Program-made: the position numbers and the translations under genes
The notes under the pieces: generated by a model
Told to the model about the DNA's origin: nothing
The model's input: only the letters and a program-made list of their open reading frames with translations
Databases searched by the model: none
Shown: positions 1,985-20,995 of the stretch, one piece after another
How the letters are laid out: every line of letters begins with the position of its first letter
Position numbering within the stretch: the stretch's first letter is position 1
Assembly (NCBI GenBank): GCA_913776405.1
Contig: CAJYOV010000192.1
Location: 1 to 20,995 of the forward strand
DNA: 20,995 nucleotides
Source: Pseudobdellovibrionaceae bacterium
GTDB taxonomy: Bacteria > Bdellovibrionota > Bdellovibrionia > Bdellovibrionales > JAMPXM01
Direction of reading: 5' to 3'

Positions 1985-2635
1985 ATGATTTCATTCTCTC
2001 ACGTCTACAAAACGTATCCGGGCCCGGTGCACGCGCTTCGCGACATCACTGTCGAAATTCAAAAAGGCGAGTTCCTGTTTCTGACTGGAAAGAGCGGCGC
2101 TGGTAAGACAACTCTCTTCCGAATGATTTCGGCTTTCGACAAACCCTCATCGGGGCAAGTGCAAGTCGCGGGCTACGACCTTGCGGCCATTCGCGCAAAC
2201 GAAGTGCCTTTCTACCGCAGAAAAATCGGTGTCGTCTTTCAAGATTTCCGACTTCTTCGCGGTCGAAGCGTTTTTGAAAACGTCGCTCTGCCACTAGAAA
2301 TTCGCGGCGACCGCGTTCAGGGGCTGAATCGACGTGTCGATGACATGCTCGATCATGTTGGCTTGATTCTGAAAAAAAATGCGCCGATCGAACAGCTCTC
2401 AGGCGGTGAACAACAGAGGGTTGCAATCGCGCGCGCGTTGATCCACCAACCGGGCGTTTTAATCGCGGATGAGCCTACGGGCAACCTCGATCCGCAGATG
2501 AGCGAAGAGATCATGGATCTCCTTGATCGTGTCAACGCTCAGGGCACGACCGTCTTTGTCGCAACTCACGATCATGAGTTGGTTCGTCGTCGCGCAAAGC
2601 GTGTCGTGAACATCGATGCGGGGCATTTGAGATGA
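1985..2635 (+). CDS. ftsE: Cell division ABC transporter ATP-binding protein FtsE
   Basis: This is a 216-residue single ABC ATPase domain, the usual FtsE length. The Walker A motif is GKSGAGKT (35-42). The Q-loop glutamine is Gln86 in VVFQDF. The signature is LSGGEQQRVAIARA (from 138), Walker B is VLIADEPTGNLD (158 onward), and the H-loop is ATHD (His195). FtsE forms a cytoplasmic dimer on FtsX and couples ATP hydrolysis to activation of periplasmic cell-wall hydrolases at the division site. It is preceded by a purine-rich AAAGAGA ribosome-binding site. Its TGA overlaps the ftsX ATG (ATGA), so the pair is translationally coupled. LolD and MacB ATPases share these motifs, but the FtsX and EnvC genes downstream make FtsE the firm choice. 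Confidence 0.95.
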   Translation: MISFSHVYKTYPGPVHALRDITVEIQKGEFLFLTGKSGAGKTTLFRMISAFDKPSSGQVQVAGYDLAAIRANEVPFYRRKIGVVFQDFRLLRGRSVFENVALPLEIRGDRVQGLNRRVDDMLDHVGLILKKNAPIEQLSGGEQQRVAIARALIHQPGVLIADEPTGNLDPQMSEEIMDLLDRVNAQGTTVFVATHDHELVRRRAKRVVNIDAGHLR

Positions 2636-3567
2636 GTTGGCTTTCGAACGATCTCAAAAGTTTTAAACGCTCTTGGCTTCATCACACAGGAATGCAGCTC
2701 GCGACTTTATCGGTGCTCACGGCTACGTTTGCAGTCGTAGCACTTGTGTTGTCGCTCGGTTTGAATGTGAATCGAATTCTAGCTTCTTGGGGCGAGACAG
2801 TGCAAATCACTGCGTACCTTGATGAGAACGTTGCTGCCGATAAGGTTTCTGGTATTCAGTCACAGCTTGAAAAACTTCCGTCGGTCGAAACGGTTGTTCA
2901 CATCCCACGCGAAGTTGCGACTCAAAATTTCAAATCTCAGATGGCGTCTTACGCTCCGGACCTTTTGACGGACTCGGATTTCGAAAATCCTTTTCCTGCA
3001 AGCTTTCGAATCAATCTTAAAGGTGGCGTCCATACTGAACAAGACTTCGCGGCTTTAGAAAAAATTGCGGCTGCGGTTGGAAAAGTCGAGGGTATCGAAG
3101 ACGTTTCTTACGGCCAGACTTGGGTGAAAAGCTATGCGTCTTTCGTGAACGCAATTGCTGCAAGTGGTGGCGTCATGGTTTTAATCCTTCTGGCAGGTGG
3201 CCTCTTTGTTGTCTCGAACTCGATTCGTGCTTCGATCACCGCTCGCCGTGAAGAGATCGAAATTCTAGAGTTGATTGGAGCAACGTCCTCGATGATCCGT
3301 AGACCCTACATCGTCGAGGGTGCCGCGATGGGCTTCGTTGCAGCTTTAATCGCGCTTGGATTGTGCTTCGGCATTCAGGCGTGGCAGCTCTCGCTCGTTT
3401 CAAAGAACTTGGAATTGGCAAGGCTCGCGCATCAAGTGACTTATCTTGGGCCGGCCCTGACACTCGCCTTCGTCGCATGCGGAACTTTCTTGGGTGCCTT
3501 CGGTGCTTGGGCGACTGTTCGTCGTATTAACGACGGTTGGTCGGCTCTTCAGAGGCAGTCGACGTGA
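2632..3567 (+). CDS. ftsX: Cell division protein FtsX
   Basis: This 311-residue membrane protein has FtsX architecture. A short cytoplasmic N-terminus is followed by TM1 (about 21-44) and a periplasmic domain (about 45-175) rich in charged residues. Three C-terminal membrane segments follow (about 176-200, 228-250 and 275-298). The motif SNSIRASITARREEIEILELIGAT between TM2 and TM3 is characteristic of the family. The periplasmic domain of FtsX normally binds EnvC or a similar hydrolase regulator, and the next gene encodes an EnvC-type protein. It overlaps ftsE by four bases, and its stop overlaps the likely GTG start of the next gene. Confidence 0.94.
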   Translation: MSWLSNDLKSFKRSWLHHTGMQLATLSVLTATFAVVALVLSLGLNVNRILASWGETVQITAYLDENVAADKVSGIQSQLEKLPSVETVVHIPREVATQNFKSQMASYAPDLLTDSDFENPFPASFRINLKGGVHTEQDFAALEKIAAAVGKVEGIEDVSYGQTWVKSYASFVNAIAASGGVMVLILLAGGLFVVSNSIRASITARREEIEILELIGATSSMIRRPYIVEGAAMGFVAALIALGLCFGIQAWQLSLVSKNLELARLAHQVTYLGPALTLAFVACGTFLGAFGAWATVRRINDGWSALQRQST

Positions 3568-4748
3568 ACAGAAACGTATTCAGACTTTTCAAGTCGCTTC
3601 TCGCGGGTTCGGCTCTGTCGATCTCGCTTGCTGCTTTTGGCGCGACACCTGAGAAGTCTGATGCGAAACCCGCAGTCAAAGTCGAAGCCCTTGCGGCAAA
3701 GATGACAGCGAGCAAACAGAAGATCGCAGAGGCGGAAGAAGAAAAACGCCGGATCCTCGGCTCGCTTTATTCGATTCAAAAAAAGATGAAGAAGATCACG
3801 TCTGAGAAGAGCCATCTGACAGACGAGCTCTTCCAAGCTCAGGACGGCGTAAGAAACATCGCGAAAGTGATCGCCAATCTCGAGAAAGAGATTTCGCAGC
3901 AGAAAGTTCAGCTCAGACGCCGACTCAGAGCGCTTTACAAGATGTCGGGTCAAGGCTACATCGGCATCTTGTTCTCTCAAACGAACTCGAGTGATCTCGA
4001 TCAAACACTTCGATTCTTAAAGATCGTGACCGACAGCGACTACAAGCTGATTCAGTCTTACAAAAAGAACGTTGCGGCTTACACGAAGCAAAAAGACAAA
4101 TTGAAGTCGCAAGTTGAACGGCTCGTGGGTATCGAGAAGCGAATTAAGAAACAAGAAGGTCTGCTGGCGCTTCAACACCAGTCGAAATCAAAGATCGTCT
4201 CGGAGCTTGATCGCAAGCGTTCAGCCAACCTCGATAGCATCAAAAGTATTCGGAAAAAGACAGAAGGCATGAGCGATGAAGTGATGGATGAGCTTCTTCG
4301 CCCTTCGATCTACGAGCAAAAAGGTCTTTTGCCTTCGCCGATCGCAGCTGCTGTTGCGCAAGACTTCGGTCTAATCACCGACGAGAAGTTTAAATTAAAG
4401 TACTCGCACAAGGGCTGGACTTACGCAGCGGTCACGGCGCCCGTTGTCTCGATCTTCGAGGGCACAGTCGCAAGAGCAACCGCGGTGCCCGGTTACGGAA
4501 CCACGGTCGTGATCGATCACGGGGATCATTATTATTCGGTCTACGCTCACTTATCTCACCTGCGTGCAAAGCAGGGTGATACGATTGAGAAAGGCCAGCC
4601 GTTCGCAGATGCGAGCGATTCAAAAGGAATATATTTCGAGATTCGACATTTTTCAGAACCGGAGAACCCGGCGATTTGGATGTCGACTCGAAACGCGAAA
4701 GCAGTTGAAGCAAGCAAAACTTCAGCGGCAATGGCCAGTGTCGACTAA
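3564..4748 (+). CDS. envC: EnvC-type amidase activator with degenerate LytM/M23 domain
   Basis: The protein has 394 residues from the GTG at 3564, which overlaps the ftsX stop (GTGA) and has AGAGG eight bases upstream. An earlier ATG at 3537 lies inside ftsX and would hide the signal peptide (MNRNVFRLFKSLLAGSALSI, cleavage near residue 26). Residues about 37-245 are long coiled coil. Residues about 255-372 are a LytM fold. The zinc-site residues of active M23 peptidases are not conserved: the expected HxGxD reads HKGWT (Asp replaced by Thr286), and the HLH before FEIR reads GIY (355-357), much like the SLYFEIR of E. coli EnvC. So it should not cleave wall itself but activate amidases, with FtsEX as the driver. 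Confidence 0.9.
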   Translation: MNRNVFRLFKSLLAGSALSISLAAFGATPEKSDAKPAVKVEALAAKMTASKQKIAEAEEEKRRILGSLYSIQKKMKKITSEKSHLTDELFQAQDGVRNIAKVIANLEKEISQQKVQLRRRLRALYKMSGQGYIGILFSQTNSSDLDQTLRFLKIVTDSDYKLIQSYKKNVAAYTKQKDKLKSQVERLVGIEKRIKKQEGLLALQHQSKSKIVSELDRKRSANLDSIKSIRKKTEGMSDEVMDELLRPSIYEQKGLLPSPIAAAVAQDFGLITDEKFKLKYSHKGWTYAAVTAPVVSIFEGTVARATAVPGYGTTVVIDHGDHYYSVYAHLSHLRAKQGDTIEKGQPFADASDSKGIYFEIRHFSEPENPAIWMSTRNAKAVEASKTSAAMASVD

Positions 4749-4760
4749 GGAGAGTCTTCA

Positions 4761-6284
4761 ATGATGCGCAGAGTGGTTAAGTTCTTAGTCGTTCCCTTAG
4801 CAATTCTCGTTCTGATGAGCGGGTGGTTTGTTGCAGCCATGGGCGGTTTCTCAAGCGCCACCGCGTATGCGAAAGAACGCTATGAAGACCTTCAAATCTT
4901 TGCGAAAGTTCTGAACCTTGTTCAGCAGTACTACGTAGAAGATGTCGATACGCAGAAGCTGATCTACGGCGGCATCAAGGGCATGCTGCAAGAGCTTGAT
5001 CCTCACACGAACTTTCTGCCGCCGGATGTTTATAAAGAGTTCGAGTCGGAAACGAGCGGCGAGTTCTCAGGGATCGGTATCGAAATCACGGTTCAAAACG
5101 ACATCCTCACGGTCATCTCTCCGATCGAGGACACACCGGCCTACATCGCAGGTATCAAAGCCGGCGACCGCATCGTCGAAATCAACGGCGTTAGCACGAA
5201 AGGTTTCTCACTCGCGGAAGCCGCTCAACACATGCGCGGAAAACGCGGCTCGAAAGTGCGTCTCGGTATTTTCCGAGATGGCTTCGAGAAGCCGAAGGTC
5301 TTCGAGGTTGAACGTGGTTCGGTGAAGGTGCGTTCGGTCAAGTTTCTCGATCTCGATGACGGCTACGGCTACATCCGCTTGACAAGCTTCATCGAAAACT
5401 CGGCGCCCGACATGGAAAAGGCGTTGAAGCAATTGATCAAATCTCACAAAGAGATCCGCGGTTTGATCATCGACCTCCGTCGAAACCCAGGCGGTCTCTT
5501 AGACCAAGCTGTTAAAATTTCGGACTTCTTCCTCGAAAAAGGCGTGATCGTCAGCACGATCGGTCGCAACAAAAAAGAAAAAGAAGTGATTTACGCGAAG
5601 AAGGAAGGCACTTACGCAAACTTCCCAATCATCGTATTGATCAACGAGTATTCGGCTTCGGCATCTGAGATCTTGGCGGGTGCGCTTCAAGACAACAAGC
5701 GTGCGCTCATCATGGGTCAACAGTCGTTTGGTAAGGGTTCGGTTCAGTCGGTCGTGAAACTCGGCGACGGATCGGGTTTGAAACTCACAGTTGCGCGCTA
5801 CTACACACCTAGCGGTCGGTCGATTCAGGCGCTCGGCATTACGCCGGACGTTCTCGTCGATGAAGTCGATCCTGAGAGCTATAAAAAAGCGATTATCAAA
5901 CGCGAAATCCGCAGAGAAGGCGATATCTCTCGCCACTTGTTGGGTGAGCGCGAGCTTGAAGAACAGGAAAAGAAGGAAGAGCCGGCACCGTCGGATTCGG
6001 CGAATTACTGGTTCAAGGCAAGTGGCGATCCGAAGAAAGCGAAGACTCCGAAAGAGAAGCTTCTCGCAGAAGACTTCCAGGCGATGCAGGCTTACAATTA
6101 CCTCCGTGCTTGGAAGGTGATGGAAGGCTACGTAGATCAAAGCTCAAATTCCGGAACACCGGTAAGTGCGGCTCCAGAGGCATCGGGAGCAGCACCAAGT
6201 TCTGGTTCGACGCCAGCGCCGGCCGCATCGCCAGCTGCTACGCCAGCCAAACCAGCGGCGAAAACGCCAGCAAAGAAGAAGTGA
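4761..6284 (+). CDS. ctpA: C-terminal processing (S41) protease, CtpA/Prc type
   Basis: This is a 507-residue periplasmic serine protease anchored or secreted by an N-terminal hydrophobic segment (about 8-28). A PDZ domain (about 100-185, starting at SGEFSGIGIEI) is followed by the S41 core with the Ser-Lys dyad. Ser300 lies in NEYSASASEI, Lys325 in FGKGSVQ, and Gln329 completes the site. These proteases trim C-termini of envelope proteins, often cell-wall hydrolases or lipoproteins. After residue 380 comes a charged region and a Pro/Ala-rich, Lys-ending tail (from about 465) that is probably disordered and might contact wall or membrane. An AAGGAGAG ribosome-binding site precedes ATG 4761, 12 bases after envC. 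The unit ends in a strong terminator. Confidence 0.93.
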   Translation: MMRRVVKFLVVPLAILVLMSGWFVAAMGGFSSATAYAKERYEDLQIFAKVLNLVQQYYVEDVDTQKLIYGGIKGMLQELDPHTNFLPPDVYKEFESETSGEFSGIGIEITVQNDILTVISPIEDTPAYIAGIKAGDRIVEINGVSTKGFSLAEAAQHMRGKRGSKVRLGIFRDGFEKPKVFEVERGSVKVRSVKFLDLDDGYGYIRLTSFIENSAPDMEKALKQLIKSHKEIRGLIIDLRRNPGGLLDQAVKISDFFLEKGVIVSTIGRNKKEKEVIYAKKEGTYANFPIIVLINEYSASASEILAGALQDNKRALIMGQQSFGKGSVQSVVKLGDGSGLKLTVARYYTPSGRSIQALGITPDVLVDEVDPESYKKAIIKREIRREGDISRHLLGERELEEQEKKEEPAPSDSANYWFKASGDPKKAKTPKEKLLAEDFQAMQAYNYLRAWKVMEGYVDQSSNSGTPVSAAPEASGAAPSSGSTPAPAASPAATPAKPAAKTPAKKK

Positions 6285-9059: not shown

Positions 9060-9089
9060 ATCTTAGGAGAAAAAGGCAGGGTTTGCCAA
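9060..9089 (-). promoter_or_regulatory. Possible sigma70-type promoter for tig
   Basis: On the minus strand TTGGCA (9084-9089) and TAAGAT (9060-9065) are separated by 18 bases, about 45 bases before the trigger factor start. Each box matches four or five consensus positions. This is a pattern match only. Confidence 0.33.
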
Positions 9090-9112
9090 TCCATTTCTCG
9101 AGGGAAGCCATA

Positions 9113-10024
9113 GTGTCGAATCGCTTTAATGCCTGGAAAGAGAAGCAAATCCTTTTCGTCTCGGGAAAGGGTGGGGTCGGAAAGTCTTTAGTGGCTGCCG
9201 GGCTCGCTCACGACCTCGCCAAAGCTGGTAAACGAGTCCTTTTGGCCGAGATCGGCGAAACCAGCTATTACAAGGATTTCTGGAACTTACCGTCGATCGG
9301 CCACGAGCCAGTTCGCCACCCTGACGGCTTCGATATCGCCCTCTGGAGCGGCGAAACGAGCCTCCGTGAATATGTGCTTTTCTATTTGAAGATGGAGCGC
9401 CTTTACTCGCTCTTTTTCGAGAATAAAGTCATGCGCTCTCTCGTTAACGTGGCTCCGGGATTAAGCGAAATCGCCATCCTCGGTAAAATCACGAGCGGAA
9501 TCCGTAAGGTTGGCCCTCCGCTTCCGTACGATACGATCATCGTCGATTCTTTTGCGACCGGCCATGCCCTCGCGCTTCTTCAGGCGCCGAAAGGCATGAT
9601 GGAGGCGATCAAGTTCGGACCGATGGGGCATCACAGTCGCGAAATGGATAAAGCGATCAAAGACCCGAAGCTTACAGGCTACATCGTGGTCACACTGCTT
9701 GAAGAGCTTCCGGTCACAGAGTCCCTTGAGTTCAATCAAACGTTGAAAACGGAATTGGGCGTTCAAGTGGATGTTGTGGCGAACAAAATTTTGGAAATGC
9801 CAGTTGCGCTCACGGAGATCGATCAAATCGCAAACGGGCAGGGCGAGCCAGCTCCGGATCTTCAAGAATTCTCGCGCTACCTCGAGAAAACGGAACGCCG
9901 CCAGGAAAAGTACATGCAAACTTTGAAAGAGAGCGGCGTCGACGTCGTCACGGTCCCGCTCATTTTTTCGAGCGAACCCAAAGTCTTAGTCCAAGCGACG
10001 GGGGAGGCGTTACGAAACGGTTAG
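9113..10024 (+). CDS. ArsA-like anion-transporter-family ATPase, first of a pair
   Basis: This is a 303-residue soluble P-loop ATPase of the ArsA/GET3-MinD class. The deviant Walker A GKGGVGKS spans residues 18-25, and DSFATGH (145-151) matches the ArsA-type DxxPTGH switch motif. The classical arsenite-binding cysteines are not evident, and no arsB or arsR is nearby, so arsenic export is unlikely. The GTG at 9113 is preferred over the upstream TTG at 9083 because GAGGG lies eight bases before it and the protein then begins just ahead of the first strand. The switch I region reads LLAEIGE instead of the DPA form in its partner, so the two ATPases are not simple duplicates. They may form a heterodimer. 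Confidence 0.85.
   Translation: MSNRFNAWKEKQILFVSGKGGVGKSLVAAGLAHDLAKAGKRVLLAEIGETSYYKDFWNLPSIGHEPVRHPDGFDIALWSGETSLREYVLFYLKMERLYSLFFENKVMRSLVNVAPGLSEIAILGKITSGIRKVGPPLPYDTIIVDSFATGHALALLQAPKGMMEAIKFGPMGHHSREMDKAIKDPKLTGYIVVTLLEELPVTESLEFNQTLKTELGVQVDVVANKILEMPVALTEIDQIANGQGEPAPDLQEFSRYLEKTERRQEKYMQTLKESGVDVVTVPLIFSSEPKVLVQATGEALRNG
10000..10014 (+). promoter_or_regulatory. Strong Shine-Dalgarno sequence followed by ACG (probable start of the second ATPase)
   Basis: GGGGGAGG (10000-10007) is the best ribosome-binding sequence near the second ATPase. Four bases later is ACG (10012-10014), in frame with that gene. The GTG at 10048 has no Shine-Dalgarno sequence. If base 10013 were T, the site would read ATGA and give the same stop/start overlap used elsewhere in this window. 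Confidence 0.5.
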
Positions 10025-10047
10025 ACGAAATCCTCCAGTCTCAAAAA

Positions 10048-11112
10048 GTGATCGTGTGCGCTGGAAGTGGCGGGGTCGGTAAGACGACCGTATCGGCCGC
10101 AATCGGTGTTCGCGCAGCGATGATGGGCCGACGAGTCTTGGTTCTCACGGTAGATCCGGCAAAACGTTTGGCCACCGCACTCGGTTTGGACTTAAGTGAT
10201 GACGCTGAGAAATCGGTCGTCCTGCCTGGCGCAACGGGCTCACTCGCAGCCGCGGTCGTCGACTCCAAAAAAGTTTTCGACAAGTTCATCAGAACGCACT
10301 CGAACCAAGCTGATGTTGTCGAGCGCATCATGAAGAACCGCTTGTATCAGCAGATGTCGACGACACTTGCTGGTTCACAGGAATTTACGGCGCTCGAGCG
10401 CCTTCTTCAGGCGACCGAATCGGGCCACTACGATCTTGTGATTCTCGATACGCCACCCACGAAACACGCGATGGATTTCCTTACGGCGCCTCAGCGTTTG
10501 AGCGCGCTTTTTTCCGACACGATCACCAAGTGGTTTACGAGCCCGGATGATAAACCGAAAGGCCTCATCGCCTCGCTCGTTGGTCGCGGTACAAGAACGG
10601 TTTTAAAATCGCTCGAGGTTCTAACCGGCGGTCAATTTATCGAAGAGCTCATCGACTTCTTCGCGGCTGTCCGCTCGATTCAAAAAACACTTCGCGATCG
10701 AAGTCTGGCCGCCGCCCAAGTCCTTACAGGTGAGTCGACCCGGTTTTTTGTCGTCACAAGTTTTGATGCGGCAAAGCTCACGGAGGCGCGCTACCTTCAA
10801 GGGCAGTTGCAACGTCTAGGCTATCGACTGGAAGCCGTGATCATCAACCGTGCGTTTCCGCTGTGGTTGCCGCCCGGTCAACAAGACGCTCAAGGCGGCG
10901 CAAATCTGTCGCAAGAGAAGGTCCGGAAATTCTTCGATCAGTTCCGTCAGTACCATAGTCGGCGGTATGATCTTTACGAAGAGTTTGCCAAAGGGCTCAA
11001 TAGAAACGTCGCTGTCGCTCGCATCCCTGAATATCAGCAGGATATTCATGGGATCGAAGACTTAAAGATGCTGGGCGAAACGTTGGCCGAATCGACTGCA
11101 AACGGGAGTTAA
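10048..11112 (+). CDS. ArsA-like ATPase, second of a pair (true start probably 10012)
   Basis: The coordinates begin at the first canonical start, GTG 10048, giving 354 residues. That start leaves only four residues before the P-loop (GSGGVGKT) and has no ribosome-binding site. The frame is open upstream and reads KRLDEILQSQK just before it, as in a natural N-terminus, so initiation at ACG 10012 (366 residues) is more likely. TVDPAKRLATALGL is the ArsA switch I region, and LVILDTPPTKHAMDFL is the DTPP switch II. A long helical middle (about 90-250) follows. Arsenite-binding cysteines are absent. It follows the first ATPase without a gap and precedes a TPR lipoprotein by five bases. A role in targeting or polar positioning of an envelope component is possible but unproven. 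Confidence 0.87.
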   Translation: MIVCAGSGGVGKTTVSAAIGVRAAMMGRRVLVLTVDPAKRLATALGLDLSDDAEKSVVLPGATGSLAAAVVDSKKVFDKFIRTHSNQADVVERIMKNRLYQQMSTTLAGSQEFTALERLLQATESGHYDLVILDTPPTKHAMDFLTAPQRLSALFSDTITKWFTSPDDKPKGLIASLVGRGTRTVLKSLEVLTGGQFIEELIDFFAAVRSIQKTLRDRSLAAAQVLTGESTRFFVVTSFDAAKLTEARYLQGQLQRLGYRLEAVIINRAFPLWLPPGQQDAQGGANLSQEKVRKFFDQFRQYHSRRYDLYEEFAKGLNRNVAVARIPEYQQDIHGIEDLKMLGETLAESTANGS

Positions 11113-14429: not shown

Positions 14430-14482
14430 GGTACCGTGCACCTATTTGCAACGCGCCGCGTGGCAAATAGGTGCACGGTACC
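14430..14482. repeat. Near-perfect 53-nt palindrome (REP-like hairpin)
   Basis: The left arm GGTACCGTGCACCTATTTGC (14430-14449) is exactly complementary to 14463-14482. The 13-nt centre extends the stem by one A-G mismatch and four pairs (ACGC/GCGT), leaving a 3-nt loop. The stem starts seven bases after the gshA stop. No T-run follows, so a standard intrinsic terminator is unlikely. It could be a dispersed REP-type element, an mRNA 3'-end stabiliser, or a small mobile palindrome. Confidence 0.9.
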
Positions 14483-14489
14483 CTCCAAA

Positions 14490-14517
14490 CTAGACCTTTG
14501 GCCTATCTAGACCTTTG
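14490..14517 (+). repeat. Two direct copies of CTAGACCTTTG, 17 bp apart
   Basis: Copies lie at 14490-14500 and 14507-14517, between the palindrome and the start of the next gene. Spacing and position would suit a two-site regulator, or a promoter element. A CCGATAA sequence (14526-14532), like the -10 region of flagellar sigma-28 promoters, lies downstream, but no correct -35 spacing is seen. Confidence 0.6.
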
Positions 14518-14548
14518 TGCGGGGTCCGATAAGAGGGTGGGGGTCTTT

Positions 14549-15259
14549 ATGCAGCGACAGCTCATGGGTGCATTCGCGGTCTTTTGTTTGGCGGTTACGG
14601 CAGGTGCCGTGGCCGGTCGAACTTCTTGGAAAGGCGCGATCTACCTAACTAGCACGAGTTTCACGTCCAATGTTCGTAACCCAGCCGCCGTTCATCGAGA
14701 TCTCGATGACACGAAACTTGAGGGCTCTGAGCTTCTCACCGGCACTCGGAACCGCCTTCTGGCCGAAGCCAAAGTGCTTCTCGAGCCCGGTGAAATGGGG
14801 CTTCAGTTTGGGCATTTCGTTACTCGAGATTCTCAGGGAAATCGACAGCTTGCGTGCGACTACTACAACAAAATGCGAGTGCGCTTTGAGGCCGATGGCG
14901 TTGCTACCGCAGGCGAAAAGCCGACGATGGAAATCGAGGGGCCTTGCCGTACAGGTGACGACATCACGAAAATCGAGCCCGTCTGGATTCCGGTCTTCAA
15001 GATCTTGGGTGAAAAACCAAGCGATATGGAACTCTCATTTTCTGAGAGTGAAGGCCTAGCGTTCAAGTTCACGAACATCGACGGGCAGTGGCCGACACGT
15101 TGGCAGTTGGCTTCAATCCAACTCTTCAATGACGCCGAATCGGGCCGGACAGTGTATTTCGACTCTCAGGCTGTTCGTGCTATTCGCTCAAAACCGCTAG
15201 TTCTTGCATGGCCACGGGCGGATCGCCTGCCATCGAGCGCGAAAAAGATTTCAGAATAA
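14549..15259 (+). CDS. Exported protein of unknown function (236 aa)
   Basis: ATG 14549 is chosen because it starts a clean signal peptide (MQRQLMGAFAVFCLAVTAGAVA, cleavage near residue 22) and follows GGGGG five bases upstream. A longer frame to 14471 would run through the palindrome. The mature part (about 214 residues) looks beta-rich and soluble, with two cysteines (in LACDYY and GPCRTG) that could form a disulfide in the periplasm. No catalytic motif or family is recognisable to me. It is probably expressed from its own promoter in the preceding spacer, which holds the direct repeats. It could be in a unit with the following exported protein. Confidence 0.72.
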   Translation: MQRQLMGAFAVFCLAVTAGAVAGRTSWKGAIYLTSTSFTSNVRNPAAVHRDLDDTKLEGSELLTGTRNRLLAEAKVLLEPGEMGLQFGHFVTRDSQGNRQLACDYYNKMRVRFEADGVATAGEKPTMEIEGPCRTGDDITKIEPVWIPVFKILGEKPSDMELSFSESEGLAFKFTNIDGQWPTRWQLASIQLFNDAESGRTVYFDSQAVRAIRSKPLVLAWPRADRLPSSAKKISE

Positions 15260-15270
15260 GAGAGCAACTA

Positions 15271-15332
15271 CCCCTTACTCCGCCTTTGTGGGAAGCCTTT
15301 CCCACTCTTAGGGGACTAGAGGCGAGGGGAGT
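15271..15332 (+). promoter_or_regulatory. Structured leader with alternative pairings before the 135-aa gene
   Basis: GTGGGAA (15288-15294) and TTCCCAC (15299-15305) form a perfect 7-bp hairpin with a GCCT loop. CCCCT (15271-15275) can pair either with AGGGG at 15310-15314 or with AGGGG at 15325-15329, which is the ribosome-binding region of the next gene. CGCCT (15281-15285) can also pair with AGGCG (15320-15324). The arrangement could be a terminator with read-through or a translational switch. Confidence 0.4.
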
Positions 15333-15338
15333 GAGTTC

Positions 15339-15746
15339 GTGAAGCGACTGGCAGCTGTTTTTATCTTCATACCTGTCGTCGCTTGGGCCGCTCTCCCTCT
15401 CCTGAATATTTCGATTTCTTCCAAGAGCCCGAGTCTTAAATGCATTCTCGAAACGACGAATCAAGCGATGCCGCCGGGCTGGAGGTCAGTCGCATTTGTC
15501 GTAGCTACGATTGAAACTCAAGACCGCTCGCTTGCATCGGTCACCATCCTCGCGAGAAACCCGTCGAGTGGATCGGGCGCCACTTACGATCTTCTCGTGA
15601 CGTCAACAGATTCAAACGGATGGAACTACTTCCAAGCCGGCGGTGATCTCGGGATCGCGACCTACTCAATGAAACAAACGGCACAACTTATTCAAAGACG
15701 AACAGCGACACGCCTCGGTGTTGTCGATCTCTCAAGTTGTCAGTAA
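15339..15746 (+). CDS. Small exported protein of unknown function (135 aa)
   Basis: GTG 15339 follows GGGGAG by seven bases. The N-terminus MKRLAAVFIFIPVVAWA is a signal peptide, cleaved near residue 17 or 18. The mature domain of about 118 residues alternates short beta strands and has one cysteine near each end (Cys35 and Cys134), which could form a disulfide in the periplasm. No family is recognised. The stop lies ten bases before the HIT-like gene, so the two may share a transcript. The preceding leader can fold so as to mask its ribosome-binding site. Confidence 0.7.
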   Translation: MKRLAAVFIFIPVVAWAALPLLNISISSKSPSLKCILETTNQAMPPGWRSVAFVVATIETQDRSLASVTILARNPSSGSGATYDLLVTSTDSNGWNYFQAGGDLGIATYSMKQTAQLIQRRTATRLGVVDLSSCQ

Positions 15747-15756
15747 TGATCGTTGG

Positions 15757-16191
15757 ATGGAACGAACAGCCATCCACGACCGCGTCGACGAAGCTAGAGC
15801 CGGAAAAAACCCTTACGTTATTTGTAAGTTAGAAACCTGCTGGGTCGTCATCGCGAACCGTAGACTTGTCCCGGGCCACTGCGTGACGTTCGCAGATCCG
15901 GTCGTCTTCGGAATGAACGATCTCTCTGAAGATCTTCGTATGAAATACTGGCGCGACGTCTGCCGTGTCGGCGACGCCCTGATCGCTGTCACCGGTTCAT
16001 ACCGCATCAACTACGAAACCCACTGCAACATCGCTCAAGCTCTGCATACGCACCTGACACCACGACAACTCTCCGAACCCGACGACAAACGCCGCGAACG
16101 CGCAGCCATCGCCTACCGCGAAGAAGAAATCGACCTCGAAAAAGAAAAGGCCTTCATCGAAAAGATGAAAGCCTTCTTGGAAGGTACGTGA
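15757..16191 (+). CDS. HIT-like (histidine triad) protein with altered first triad position
   Basis: ATG 15757 gives 144 residues. An in-frame TTG at 15718 lies inside the preceding gene and is less likely. The order of elements is HIT-like: a strand pair (YVICKLETCWVVIANRRLVPGHCVTFADPVV), a helix, then RINYETHCNIAQALHTHLTPR. The HIT signature is HxHxH; here the first His is Ala95, while His97 (the position of the nucleophile) and His99 remain. Some bacterial HIT-like proteins with an E/QPALHxH motif share this pattern, so it may be a family trait rather than decay. HIT enzymes hydrolyse dinucleotide polyphosphates or nucleoside phosphoramidates. A charged C-terminal helix (about 118-144) ends the protein. 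No signal peptide is present. Confidence 0.75.
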   Translation: MERTAIHDRVDEARAGKNPYVICKLETCWVVIANRRLVPGHCVTFADPVVFGMNDLSEDLRMKYWRDVCRVGDALIAVTGSYRINYETHCNIAQALHTHLTPRQLSEPDDKRRERAAIAYREEEIDLEKEKAFIEKMKAFLEGT

Positions 16192-16193
16192 TT

Positions 16194-16207
16194 CGGTTAT
16201 GCAACCG
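16194..16207. other. Small hairpin between convergent genes
   Basis: CGGTT-ATGC-AACCG forms a 5-bp stem just after the HIT-like stop. There is no T-run on either strand, so it is a poor terminator candidate. The 47-bp gap between the convergent genes holds nothing else I can recognise. Confidence 0.3.
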
Positions 16208-16238
16208 CCCGCGTCACATGCGAGCGAGCCGTGGTTTC

Positions 16239-17885
16239 TTAGCGGAGCAAGTTCAAACACTTTCCAGCATCAAGCGTCTGGAAGTCTTGCGCACGGTGAC
16301 CAAGAAGCGTTGGAAGTTCAGCATTGATCGGTTGCACGCCCTTCGCCATCTGGCAGAAGTCGTTAAGCTCTTTGCCCGCGTCTTTCATCTTCTTGCGGCG
16401 AGCATTCACACCATCGCGTGAGAGAAGCGGGTAATCACGGATTTCGCCCTCAGCTACGCGGAACTTACGAACGTAGTACTTCACCGTACGATCGATGTTT
16501 GCGCGAGCGACTTCTGTCCACATTGGATCGCCTTTGTGAAGCTTCTGGATCGTCTCCCAGATCGCTTTGCCTTCAAACGCGGTCGGTGCGAGTTCGCTTG
16601 CTTGAACAGACATGAATTCGTTTTGAATGCGCTTCATCAAGTCTTTGTTTTTCACTAAACCATCCGTGTGGTTCCAGACGAAGACAGCGGCTTGACGGTA
16701 GTAAGCATCTGATTCAGTCGACGTGAGCCAACCTAAGTTTTCAGCCAAGTCGACGGTCTTCAGCAATTCAAGCGGCGCGTTTGCGAGCTGAGTGAGAACG
16801 CCGTTTTGACCGACGACGACATCGCGAAGAGTTGTGCTTGTCGACAAACGCTGAAGGAGAGCTTTTTGTTCGCCTTTTGCGCGCTGGCCACGACCGGCCA
16901 TTTCCAGAAGATACGGAAGCATTTGAATCACGCCGCTACGGTCATTCGTTTGAACAATCGCTTCGATCGCGCGAAGTTTTGCCGAGCTCGATTCGTAGAA
17001 CGAGCAATACTGCTTAGCAATGTAATCGTCTTGTGAGCCCGAAGCGATGCCGGCCACGTCTGTGTAGTGACCCGTGATCTTTTCAGCAAAGAGCGGCTGC
17101 AGGCTCTTACCCGATTTGTAAATTTCCTGGTTACGGCCGTTGATTTTGCCCTCTGCGATTGTTTCGATCTCTTTGTAATAAGCCTCAGAGATCATGCGGC
17201 GCTGAGAGTCGTCGAGCATCGCGCCAGGTTGCAAACCTGGAACGAGAGCGCGGAAGTAAGCGCCGAGTTTTTCTTCGACTTGGTTTCCGAGCGGAGCTTT
17301 ATCGCCGAAGCCACCGATGAATGCCGAACCGTTGAAAATACGACGAAGGCGATCGTTGAATGAGTCGCCGATTGGCGAGTAACGAACGGCCGCTGTTGCA
17401 AGAGCATCAGCAGAATCGAGACCGACTTCGTCGCGAAGAACGCGAGCGTATTCTTCTGGAGTTCGGCTCGATTTCTGTTTCGAGGCGAGCGTGTTGCAGC
17501 CGAAAAGGTAAACCATCGTGGCGTCATTCAAGACACTCGGGCATGAGCTGCAAGAGAGCTTTTCCATGTCCGAATCAGAAAGGAAGAATGACTTGTTGTC
17601 AGTGAAGCCGCCGCCGAAGTGGCCAGAGACAAGAACAACGTCACACTTCACTTTGTTTTCTTTGCACGTGCGCGCGAGGAATCCTGTGTCTGATTTGCCT
17701 TTGACGAGTTCAACGAACTCGAAGTAATCCGGGTGAAGGTAGCGCTGGAACGACTCTTTCTCTTCGCTCGAATTGATCGTCGCGGTACAGATCACCTTTT
17801 TCTTGATGCCGGAATTTTGCGCCAAAGCCGGCAACGCAGCGAGCGTCAGAAGTGCAGTCGTGACTGAGAGTTTCAAAAGTCTCAT
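16239..17885 (-). CDS. Secreted protein with putative caspase/CHAT-type cysteine peptidase domain
   Basis: ATG 17885 gives 548 residues. It is preferred over 17903 because it has GGAG seven bases upstream, makes an ATGA overlap with the serine protease stop, and starts a clean signal peptide (cleavage after ALA, residue 22). Residues about 30-215 look like an alpha/beta domain. CDVVLVSGHFGGGF (His89) is followed about 40 residues later by ATMVYLFGCNTLA (Cys130). A His after one hydrophobic strand and a Cys after the next is the dyad layout of caspase-fold peptidases, including CHAT. SCSSC (111-115) adds a cysteine-rich loop between them. Residues about 215-548 are helical, with no recognised family. 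Peptidase activity is inferred, not established. Confidence 0.8.
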   Translation of the reverse strand: MRLLKLSVTTALLTLAALPALAQNSGIKKKVICTATINSSEEKESFQRYLHPDYFEFVELVKGKSDTGFLARTCKENKVKCDVVLVSGHFGGGFTDNKSFFLSDSDMEKLSCSSCPSVLNDATMVYLFGCNTLASKQKSSRTPEEYARVLRDEVGLDSADALATAAVRYSPIGDSFNDRLRRIFNGSAFIGGFGDKAPLGNQVEEKLGAYFRALVPGLQPGAMLDDSQRRMISEAYYKEIETIAEGKINGRNQEIYKSGKSLQPLFAEKITGHYTDVAGIASGSQDDYIAKQYCSFYESSSAKLRAIEAIVQTNDRSGVIQMLPYLLEMAGRGQRAKGEQKALLQRLSTSTTLRDVVVGQNGVLTQLANAPLELLKTVDLAENLGWLTSTESDAYYRQAAVFVWNHTDGLVKNKDLMKRIQNEFMSVQASELAPTAFEGKAIWETIQKLHKGDPMWTEVARANIDRTVKYYVRKFRVAEGEIRDYPLLSRDGVNARRKKMKDAGKELNDFCQMAKGVQPINAELPTLLGHRAQDFQTLDAGKCLNLLR

Positions 17886-18883
17886 GGGGCGTCTCCAGTA
17901 CATTTCAAATTTGGATCGAGAATGAGATGAGTCTGAGCTTGAATCCAGCAGAGGTGCGGATAAACAGAAGCTGCAATCTGCGACGTATCCTTATCGCCGC
18001 AGACTTGTAGAAGATCGCTTGGCGAAAGCGCACTCTTCGCCGCAAGCGGATCTGATTTGCATCCATTTGCATCGTAAGTGATCAAGCTCTCAGGGCTGAT
18101 GCCCTTCTTAAGAAGCTTCTCTTTCGCTTTGTTGTAATTTTCTGTTTGCTCAGCTGAGTGCTTGGCTGCGAGTGCGCCGCCAGCCTTAATCGCAGTCAAA
18201 ACACCGACCAATGTTTTTCGAGACGCACCGTCGATCGCAAAGAGCGGCCCACCGCTATCGCCGAAACAAGAAGACTGCCCAGAGGTTACGCCTTTTGCGC
18301 GGATCAAGGTGCCATCGTCTTCAAGAGTTGCGGTCAGGGAATAACGGAGTTTCGCGGGCGCGGAACTCATATTGCTTTTTGAGCTGAGTCCATAACCGAT
18401 CAACTCGAAATCACGCGCGTGAGCGACCGCCGACATGAGCGACTCGCGAGTCGAAGCGACATCCGGCAAATCGGTCTGCGTGAGCCCAAGTGCAGGTAAG
18501 ATACGATCGGCAAAAAGGAAGTAGGCGATGTCAGCGCCGCTTTTTCCAGCTGCTTGAACGCCCTTGATATCTCGGCAATAGCCAGTTCGTGCTTCCGCTT
18601 TTTGAATCTTAAGACGGCGCCCTGAATCCGGAACCGAAGCGGAGTTCGCGAACGAGAAGGCGTTCATCTCTTTGCCAAGAACGCAGTGGCCAGCGGTTAA
18701 GATCAAACGTGGGTGAATGACCGTACCTGTGCAGATATTGTTTGTCTGTTCATTGAGAATAAAGACGGTCGCCTTCGTTGACTCAACAGGCGCGCGTGTT
18801 CCCCGAATAACGGCTGTCGCCGTTAACGACGAAAAAAGTGAGAAGGCGAATGTGGCTGCGGCAAACGTACGGGAAAATCGCAT
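17882..18883 (-). CDS. Secreted chymotrypsin-fold (S1) serine protease
   Basis: The product has 333 residues with a signal peptide that ends TATA at residue 24. The catalytic triad is complete: His66 in LTAGHC, Asp118 in GADIAYF, and Ser210 in CFGDSGGPL. The residue six before the Ser (Ser204) occupies the S1-pocket position that is Asp in trypsin, so Lys/Arg specificity is not expected. Right after the predicted cleavage comes VIRGTRAP, similar to the IVGG that forms the active N-terminus of these proteases. Signal peptidase cleavage alone might therefore produce active enzyme. A C-terminal extension (about 240-333) contains three cysteines and no recognised domain. It overlaps the caspase-like gene by four bases. 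Confidence 0.9.
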   Translation of the reverse strand: MRFSRTFAAATFAFSLFSSLTATAVIRGTRAPVESTKATVFILNEQTNNICTGTVIHPRLILTAGHCVLGKEMNAFSFANSASVPDSGRRLKIQKAEARTGYCRDIKGVQAAGKSGADIAYFLFADRILPALGLTQTDLPDVASTRESLMSAVAHARDFELIGYGLSSKSNMSSAPAKLRYSLTATLEDDGTLIRAKGVTSGQSSCFGDSGGPLFAIDGASRKTLVGVLTAIKAGGALAAKHSAEQTENYNKAKEKLLKKGISPESLITYDANGCKSDPLAAKSALSPSDLLQVCGDKDTSQIAASVYPHLCWIQAQTHLILDPNLKCTGDAP

Positions 18884-19029
18884 ACGCCCACAGTAAGCAT
18901 TTCTGATGCCGAAACAGGCCTGACCACGGAGAGTGTCTTATTGATCACAGTCGATCTGACAGCTCGAGTTTCAAGAAAACATCAAAATGATTTGAGCGAG
19001 AGCCGCCGAACGTCGTCGCTGTCGAGAGG
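18884..19029. other. Spacer upstream of the protease pair
   Basis: These 146 bases separate the hotdog-fold gene from the serine protease and probably contain the protease promoter. I find no convincing -35/-10 pair and no strong terminator hairpin. Confidence 0.4.
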
Positions 19030-19584
19030 TTAGACGGTGCCTTGTGGCTCAGCGGACGAGTCGTGCTTCGGCTTTTTCGGGCGACGCTTTGTCGAGAGAG
19101 TGAGCTCGAATTCTGCGATCCGGGCGTTCGGGTCAATGCTGGGGACAACCGCGTAGGCTTTGTACGTGCGGTTTAGGCGTTCATCGGTGGTTTCAGATTC
19201 GCGCAGCTGTGCGAGGACTTCAGCGTTTTCGTCGCAAATGAAATGCACGTCGCCTTCGGCGCGCTTTAAGAAAGTCGCTTTGAAATCGCGGAACAGAAAG
19301 TCGATGCGATGTTCGCTTTCACGAGTGAACTTGAAGGCAAGCATCGCAATCGAAAGTTCGGCGCCAATGTTGATGGCGCCGAAGTACATCACGCGCAAAT
19401 GATTCCGCGTGAGAAAATTCAAAGGGATTTTTAAAACCGTACGCGTTTCGGAAAGCTCAACCACGCGGGGAGTAACGATACCAACGAGTGGAATCATCAA
19501 GCCGCCGACCGCCGTGAGAGCGAGTTCTTCAGCTTTTTTCTTCATTCCGGGTGATAAGAATCCGAACGCGTCGTTGAGTTTCAT
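19030..19584 (-). CDS. Hotdog-fold (DUF4442-like) protein, possible thioesterase
   Basis: The protein has 184 residues. Its core pattern, a helix, then VVELSETRTVLKIPLNFLTRNHLRVMYFGAINIGAELSIAMLAF, matches the hotdog fold of DUF4442/PaaI-like proteins, where the N-H and MYFGA blocks precede the central helix. Such proteins often cleave acyl-CoA thioesters, but DUF4442 substrates are unknown. The C-terminus (from about 168) is basic, TKRRPKKPKHD, and likely disordered. AAGGGA precedes ATG 19584 by five bases. The gene starts 17 bases after the aminopeptidase stop, so they are probably cotranscribed. Confidence 0.75.
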   Translation of the reverse strand: MKLNDAFGFLSPGMKKKAEELALTAVGGLMIPLVGIVTPRVVELSETRTVLKIPLNFLTRNHLRVMYFGAINIGAELSIAMLAFKFTRESEHRIDFLFRDFKATFLKRAEGDVHFICDENAEVLAQLRESETTDERLNRTYKAYAVVPSIDPNARIAEFELTLSTKRRPKKPKHDSSAEPQGTV

Positions 19585-19601
19585 AAAATCCCTTACGTGA
19601 A

Positions 19602-20995
19602 TTAACCGTTATTCATCGCCATTTGAACGAATGTGCGAACCATCACGCCGGATGCGCCTTTAGCAGGGCAGTACGGAAGACGATTGCCGACATGCCAGCC
19701 CGTGCCCGCGATATCGAAATGCGCCCAAGGAATATCTTTCGAGACGAACTGTTCGAGGAAGGCTGCCGCAGTCGCTGAACCAGCACCTTTGCCTGATGAG
19801 ATGTTCGAGAGATCTGCGTAAGTGCCTTTCATATCCTTCACGTGGTAATCCGTGAGCGGCATTCTCCACAGCCATTCGCCAGAAGCCTCGGCAGCTTCTT
19901 CGATTTGTTCTGAAAGATCGTTGTCGCGTGTGAAGTAACCTGTGTGCGTGTTGCCAAGAGCTACGACCATCGCGCCCGTGAGAGTTGCGGTATCGAGAAT
20001 CATCGAAGGGTTTTGTTCGCACGCGTACACGAGAGCGTCCGCGAGGATCAAGCGGCCTTCGGCGTCGGTGTTATTCACTTCGATCGTTTTACCGTTACGA
20101 GCCGTCACGATGTCACCTGGCTTTGTGGCCGCTGGGCCAGCCAAGTTCTCAGTCGCAGGAACGAGACCGATGACATTTACTTTCAGTTTCAACTGAGCGA
20201 TTGCGAGCATAGCGCCGATAACCGCAGCCCCGCCGCACATGTCGTACTTCATCTCTTCCATTCCGGCAGCGGGCTTAATGCTGATACCGCCGCAGTCGAA
20301 CGTAAGACCTTTGCCAACGAGCGCGATCGGCTTCTTCGAGCTTGGTGCGCCGTTATATTCCATAATGATGAATCGCGGTTCTTGCGAGGAGCCGTTCGAA
20401 ACGCTCAAGAACGAGCCCATTTTCTCGCTCTTAATGCGCGACTTATCCCAGACAGTGACTTTCAACTTCGTGCCTTTTGCGGCTTTCAAAGTTTCTTCAG
20501 CCATAATTGTCGGAGTCATCTTGTTGCCTGGGCGATCGCCTAACCAACGTGAGAAGTTCACGCAAGAAGCGAGCGTGTTGCCGATCTCAAGACCGCGCTC
20601 GTGGCCCTTCGCTTTTGCCGTGCTGACGATGTAAGTCGTTTCAACTTGCTTCGCGTCTTTCGCAGACTCTTTGAATTCGTTGAACGAGTAATCGGCAAGA
20701 TGCGCACCTTCGGTTAGCGCCTGAACCGTGAGATCTGCGTCGAGCGAATTGTGCGGGAGCGTGTCCATCGCGAGTGCGAGGGTGCGCGCCTTCGCAGAAC
20801 GAGCGTGATTCACAGCCGTGGCTGCGGCTTGACGAAGAGTTTCGTGGGTCATTGTCTTCGGATCACCAAGGCCGATTGTGATCACGTGGCGGACACCCGC
20901 AACACCTGCATCGCGGAACAAGAGGGCCTCGTTCACGCTGCCTGAAATCGTCGAGTCGTCGAGAGAAACCTGGATTTTAGACTGGATCGCTTTTG
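19602..20995 (-). CDS. pepA: Leucyl aminopeptidase (M17), 5' end beyond window
   Basis: The frame is open to the right edge, reading KAIQSKIQVSLDDSTISGSVNEALLF, so GTG 20936 is internal and the true start lies outside. The visible 464 codons hold the whole M17 catalytic domain. VGKGLTFDCGGISIKP supplies the catalytic Lys and metal-binding Asp, MKYDMCGGAAV the next block, and NNTDAEGRL is the family signature with Asp and Glu metal ligands. The enzyme is a cytoplasmic hexameric, two-metal exopeptidase that removes N-terminal residues, with leucine preferred in many members. The N-terminal macro-like regulatory domain is largely present. It would finish digestion of peptides taken up by the cell. 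Confidence 0.93.
   Translation of the reverse strand, partial: KAIQSKIQVSLDDSTISGSVNEALLFRDAGVAGVRHVITIGLGDPKTMTHETLRQAAATAVNHARSAKARTLALAMDTLPHNSLDADLTVQALTEGAHLADYSFNEFKESAKDAKQVETTYIVSTAKAKGHERGLEIGNTLASCVNFSRWLGDRPGNKMTPTIMAEETLKAAKGTKLKVTVWDKSRIKSEKMGSFLSVSNGSSQEPRFIIMEYNGAPSSKKPIALVGKGLTFDCGGISIKPAAGMEEMKYDMCGGAAVIGAMLAIAQLKLKVNVIGLVPATENLAGPAATKPGDIVTARNGKTIEVNNTDAEGRLILADALVYACEQNPSMILDTATLTGAMVVALGNTHTGYFTRDNDLSEQIEEAAEASGEWLWRMPLTDYHVKDMKGTYADLSNISSGKGAGSATAAAFLEQFVSKDIPWAHFDIAGTGWHVGNRLPYCPAKGASGVMVRTFVQMAMNNG

Follow-up and report, generated by a model that had tools for sequence, protein, structure and literature searches.

The 20,995-base contig CAJYOV010000192.1 of a Pseudobdellovibrionaceae bacterium (hereafter the window), which belongs to a draft genome of 84% completeness and 4% contamination, carries on its reverse strand two genes that overlap by an ATGA (Table 1). 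The first in operon order encodes a serine protease of the S1 family, and the second a protein, P0001, that is predicted to adopt the fold of the caspases. An initial annotation, made from the letters alone, had described this overlapping pair, and its frames, coordinates and motifs were all found in the sequence as it had given them. It had also taken the coupling as a sign of fixed stoichiometry and of a joint job, for example one protease activating the other. The overlap is indeed present, but because adjacent genes of bacteria often share a 4-base ATGA it says little about stoichiometry by itself. The G+C content of both genes (0.52) matches that of the window (0.527) and thus gives no pointer to a recent foreign origin. 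A scan of positions 15600-19700 for sigma-70-like promoters found none, shuffled sequences averaging 2.0, and was uninformative.

Table 1. Positions of the two genes and of their features in the window
Feature	Position	Strand	Description or basis
S1 protease gene	17882..18883	(-)	333 residues; chymotrypsin-type serine protease, probably exported; Pfam Trypsin, E 7.3e-17
S1 triad codons	His66 18686-18688; Asp118 18530-18532; Ser210 18254-18256	(-)	invariant in 10/10 orthologues
Lys/Arg-rich linker of S1 protein, residues 240-285	18029..18166	(-)	Lys plus Arg content, 10 orthologues
C-terminal Cys/Trp module of S1 protein, residues 286-333	17885..18028	(-)	orthologue alignment
GGAG, Shine-Dalgarno-like	17893..17896	(-)	7 nucleotides upstream of caspase-fold ATG, within S1 gene; sequence
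ATGA overlap, S1 stop/caspase-fold start	17882..17885	(-)	sequence
Caspase-fold protein gene (P0001)	16239..17885	(-)	548 residues; clan CD-like, probably exported; AlphaFold2, VIA-align, dyad conservation
Predicted caspase/haemoglobinase-fold domain, residues 28-282	17040..17804	(-)	AlphaFold2, VIA-align
Putative catalytic dyad codons	His89 17619-17621; Cys130 17496-17498	(-)	invariant in 120/120
All-helical C-terminal region, residues 285-548	16242..17033	(-)	AlphaFold2 secondary structure

Predicted fold, dyad and family of the second protein

No Pfam or NCBIfam model matched the 548-residue protein, the only hit of P0001 alone at E <= 1 being DUF4129 (0.15). AlphaFold2 modelled the full protein and its domain with a predicted local distance difference test (pLDDT) score of 93.3 and 94.2, respectively. 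On re-alignment with VIA-align, the best chains were SAVED-CHAT (top), iotapain, legumain, caspases and gingipain; for the domain, 49 of the 50 rows shown were caspase, CHAT, C11, legumain or gingipain, the remaining one, Tce1 (9qpe_G), being left unclassified. The models agree in this with the caspase-like fold that had been suspected from the motifs. In the AlphaFold2 model, the third and fourth strands (residues 83-87 and 124-128) precede His89 and Cys130, and two short strands (93-95 and 101-103) were assigned in the stretch between strand 3 and helix 3, where clan CD peptidases have a small section of three strands.

His89 and Cys130 lie in the motifs SGHFGG and LFGCNT. In an alignment of 120 members (P0001 and 119 other matches, the best of 251 found), Ser87, His89 and Cys130 were invariant (120/120) and Gly88 was kept in 117, Ala taking its place in the other 3, while the His and the Cys were 41-51 residues apart. 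The His-(about 40)-Cys layout of the initial annotation is therefore not a chance one, and loss of the two residues, which was looked for among these members, was not seen. The protein is probably a cysteine endopeptidase with a putative His89/Cys130 dyad. Alternatively, it could have the fold and no peptidase activity, acting as a scaffold, a binding protein or a regulator. Inactive caspase-like folds exist, such as that of Raptor, which headed the Foldseek matches for the full model, and the residue that follows the His is Phe, not Gly. The constancy of Ser87, Gly88, His89 and Cys130 argues against such a role, which we regard as very unlikely.

For P0001, 251 homologues were found at E <= 0.001, and family matches were found in 83 of the 368 genomes of the phylum searched, three candidates being scored per genome. 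Among the 251 homologues are members that their sources name as Bdellovibrio, Bdellovibrionota, Betaproteobacteria and Casimicrobiaceae. Pfam models of clan CD matched none of the 44 of 120 members scanned, in which 22 families were found at E <= 0.1. By a simple hydropathy rule, 117 of the 120 members have a hydrophobic stretch before the domain; the N-termini of both proteins of the pair are likewise of a kind that makes export probable, as had been proposed. As modelled, these proteins would form an exported clan CD family of considerable size for which neither Pfam nor NCBIfam provided a model; if active, its members would constitute a fresh set of site-specific peptidases. The caspase-fold domain is common to proteins of 340-930 residues (P0018-P0121) with varied C-termini, some of them with HEAT repeats; HEAT_2 of Pfam was found in 7 of the 44 homologues scanned, on the C-terminal side.

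The S1 protease

The triad, described at the outset as intact, was so: His66, Asp118 and Ser210, as well as Asp209, were invariant in ten orthologues (the window's protein and nine others). In S1 peptidases, the Asp preceding the active Ser pairs with the free N-terminus of the mature enzyme. Ala24 stands directly before an I/V-I/V-x-G motif in 9 of the 10, which suggests that removal of the signal peptide after this residue makes the mature N-terminus. Since cleavage by signal peptidase would expose a V-I-x-G N-terminus, the protease should be active once exported. The S1 pocket residue, at what we take to be chymotrypsin position 189, is Ser or Thr in all ten and not the Asp of trypsin; the pocket thus appears to be chymotrypsin-like rather than trypsin-like. 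The C-terminal module of about 48 residues was common to all nine orthologues and, in the searches made, only this S1 subfamily had it. S1 matches were present in 52 of the 368 phylum genomes (E 1e-10), and in that search (E <= 1e-10, up to five candidates scored per genome) only the match in the window covered the module cleanly.

Apparent recurrence of the pair and its surroundings

A search with the S1 alignment yielded nine orthologues at E 8.5e-86 or better, the next match being at 3.5e-10. Three of them come from contigs of 966-1258 bases, which have no room for both genes. For four of the other six, the source and the contig base count were identical to those of a caspase-fold orthologue (P0125/P0008, 6389 bases; P0143/P0006, 11431; P0145/P0009, 7436; P0147/P0007, 58563). 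When 118 x 115 contig sizes were compared, drawn from the best 120 of 251 caspase-fold matches and the best 120 of 160 S1 matches after exclusion of six entries that had no size, no equal pair was found beyond those four. In a tree of 16 caspase-fold orthologues, the paired ones and P0003-P0005 share one fork (support 87/87), and the paired label takes two changes, a number as low being reached in 1 of 500 shuffles. An S1 match is lacking for P0003-P0005 and for eight more of the 16, five of them on contigs of more than 14 kilobases (kb). The initial annotation had named as fatal to its proposal the case that homologues never occur next to an S1 protease; the window shows otherwise, as do, indirectly, the four matches of size and source. 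The pairing therefore seems to recur, narrowly and within a lineage.

Several observations weigh against reading the genes as one exported module of two endopeptidases. Adjacency of the two genes on the four contigs is presumed from equal size and source. P0122 (16710 bases) and P0123 (15048 bases) have no size match among the contigs listed; the former is 96% identical to the S1 protein of the window, and its partner may fall within the two-member cluster of P0001. Across five pairs, the identities of the S1 and caspase-fold proteins run parallel (r = 0.96), as shared descent alone would also lead one to expect. No S1 gene was found near wider-family members at any of the 26 loci that a search of genome contigs with alignment A1 retrieved (flanks of at most 6 kb in either direction, shorter at contig ends), nor at any of 8 further loci. 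Finally, Foldseek E-values were weak, no match of the full or domain model reaching 0.001, and are not decisive alone; KaiA and aspartate decarboxylase are among the top entries. Conservation of the pair thus extends to the window and to four probable cases among close orthologues, but not to these loci of the wider family.

Further searches gave a similar picture. Among 30 loci with 1.5-kb flanks, some of which overlap the other sets, there was no S1 gene besides the window's own. As a control, the S1 profile recovered 20 of 20 S1 loci, themselves fetched with a related profile. Conversely, a caspase-fold gene was found within 1.5 kb of none of the 19 S1 loci outside the window. Profile searches of genome contigs or of up to 368 phylum genomes, with a limited number of candidates scored per genome (three in one search, five in another), gave no second readable pair, though they did find family members. 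A single-sequence search of genome contigs gave no relatives of P0001, and there were none in viral contigs. Residues specific to the paired proteins were confined to 4 columns of the helical region, with too few sequences for an interpretation.

In four relatives (G002, G007, G011 and G012), gshA, orf262 and an M17 aminopeptidase gene stand together with no S1 or caspase-fold gene between them, and in G001, of the same genus, the corresponding interval holds other genes (five relatives read, of 11 with a gshA match). The S1, caspase-fold and DUF4442 genes therefore represent either a lineage-specific insertion here or a loss elsewhere. Elsewhere, G001 has a diverged family member (37% across the domain), and the 6.2-kb contig that carries it has no S1 match. 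The later portion of this member (L110, 4204-5856) no longer resembles the family, and the frame there seems to be read differently. Genes next to wider-family members are shared with at most two other loci, among the neighbour genes listed.

The DUF4442 (thioesterase-like) gene adjoins the pair at 19030-19584. In the relatives that were read, the interval lacks this gene too, and its best family match (41%) is in G009. On the other side, 14471-16191 holds three small genes with no Pfam or NCBIfam match. Two of these, orf262 and orf157, are also represented in G001, and the relatives differ in how orf262 is oriented with respect to gshA. Farther away are two tandem ArsA-type ATPase genes (9083-11112) and, at 1985-6284, genes that read as ftsE/ftsX-like, after which come two peptidases, one of family M23 and one of family S41 with a PDZ domain.

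Possible roles and comparison with known systems

The likeliest explanation, which we hold with somewhat more confidence than doubt, is a translationally linked module that puts two endopeptidases in one compartment outside the inner membrane, joint cleavage being the most probable outcome. The first enzyme would be the chymotrypsin-type S1 protease. The second would be a cysteine peptidase that has a His89/Cys130 dyad and a helical C-terminal region and belongs to a clan CD family without a profile. Together they would most likely cleave external proteins, including those of prey if the organism preys on bacteria like its relatives. In Bdellovibrio, prey lysis has been linked to secreted serine proteases (PMC12546842, available text), and prey digestion would therefore be a natural role; the words caspase and cysteine are absent from the main text of that report. 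The two enzymes might also process one another, in either direction.

Two exported hydrolases could instead share an operon and have no action on each other. Bdellovibrio is rich in secreted serine proteases (PMC12546842, available text), S1 genes are frequent in the phylum, as the 52 genomes above indicate, and other family members have no S1 partner. Against such independence, it is one particular S1 subfamily, marked by its private module, that is repeatedly associated with one particular caspase-fold subfamily, and we consider independence possible but rather doubtful.

The initial annotation had named, as an example, a cascade in which one protease activates the other. In one form of it, the S1 protease would cut the caspase-fold protein, a zymogen, and switch it on, as SspA does SspB in Staphylococcus aureus. 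The S1 gene comes first in the operon and the pair recurs; there is a precedent for a serine protease that activates a co-expressed cysteine protease (PMC3454333, available text), and cleavage activates several clan CD enzymes (PMC4357240, available text). However, neither a propeptide nor an activation loop of low confidence is seen in the AlphaFold2 models. The loop that follows Cys130 (residues 131-142) is short, and its conserved basic residues, Lys136 and Arg141, are ill-suited to an S1 enzyme with a Ser/Thr pocket. The S1 partner is, moreover, missing from most family members examined. While the predicted fold, the dyad, the probable export and the recurrence by equal contig sizes sustain part of the initial interpretation, its cascade finds no such backing and appears unlikely.

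The reverse would be a cut by the caspase-fold enzyme in the linker of the S1 protein, freeing the protease from its C-terminal module. The linker contains 18-28% Lys plus Arg in all ten orthologues, as compared with 9-13% for the catalytic part and 0-10% for the module. In the searches made, no S1 subfamily had the module except the one paired with the caspase-fold gene. Since C11, C25 and metacaspases cleave after Arg or Lys (PMC12445089, available text), this direction is in principle as open as the cascade. Basic linkers are common, however, and we rate such processing as distinctly unlikely. A bolder idea, for which we see a small though appreciable chance, is an extracytoplasmic two-step relay in Bdellovibrio-like bacteria, in which an S1 protease that is active from the start and a caspase-fold enzyme from a new clan CD family process one another: it would be a secreted counterpart of initiator and executioner caspases, having arisen apart from the cytoplasmic ones. 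The pair itself would offer a simple two-protein test for a relay of caspase-fold and serine proteases outside bacterial cells.

A defence system was also considered and set aside on three grounds: the export-type N-termini (hydropathy), neighbours that include no recognised nuclease or defence gene, and PADLOC, which gave nothing for P0001 and for P0002 only weak matches to LmuA (0.011) and Avs1b (0.032).

The statement that no system of this exact pair had been described held in the literature searched, mainly at the level of titles and abstracts and with few subscription journals, where no description of the gene pair or of the family was found. The predicted fold and the positions of the His, after the third strand, and of the Cys, after the fourth, are those of clan CD (C11 clostripain/iotapain, C13 legumain, C14 caspases/metacaspases, C25 gingipain, and CHAT), as is the Gly adjoining the catalytic His, here Gly88; these features define the clan (PMC4357240 and PMC12445089, available text). 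The family of the window differs by His-Phe instead of His-Gly, by the helical C-terminal region and by invariant extra cysteines, and, in the 44 members scanned, it escapes the Pfam models of the profiled families.

In the sspABC operon of S. aureus, SspB is papain-like and the third gene encodes an inhibitor. As the window probably does, this operon encodes a secreted S1-type serine protease together with a secreted cysteine protease (PMC3454333, available text), whereas the cysteine enzyme of the window is predicted to be caspase-fold and no third gene takes part in the overlap. Prokaryotic metacaspases and orthocaspases, including those in operons with protease genes, are bacterial caspase-fold enzymes too, some with a possible signal peptide; the metacaspase survey, however, used Pfam-type profiles, which are blind to the family of the window, and its main text does not name Bdellovibrio. 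Paired systems with trypsin-like or caspase-type proteases are also known from the trypsin-nuclease and caspase-nuclease (canu) antiviral loci (PMC12799240, available text), and SAVED-CHAT is the best fold match of the caspase-fold protein. These act in intracellular defence, in contrast with the export-type N-termini of the window's proteins and with neighbours among which no nuclease or defence gene was recognised. The pair is best read as two exported proteases that form one lineage-specific module, founded on a clan CD family for which no profile exists in the libraries scanned.
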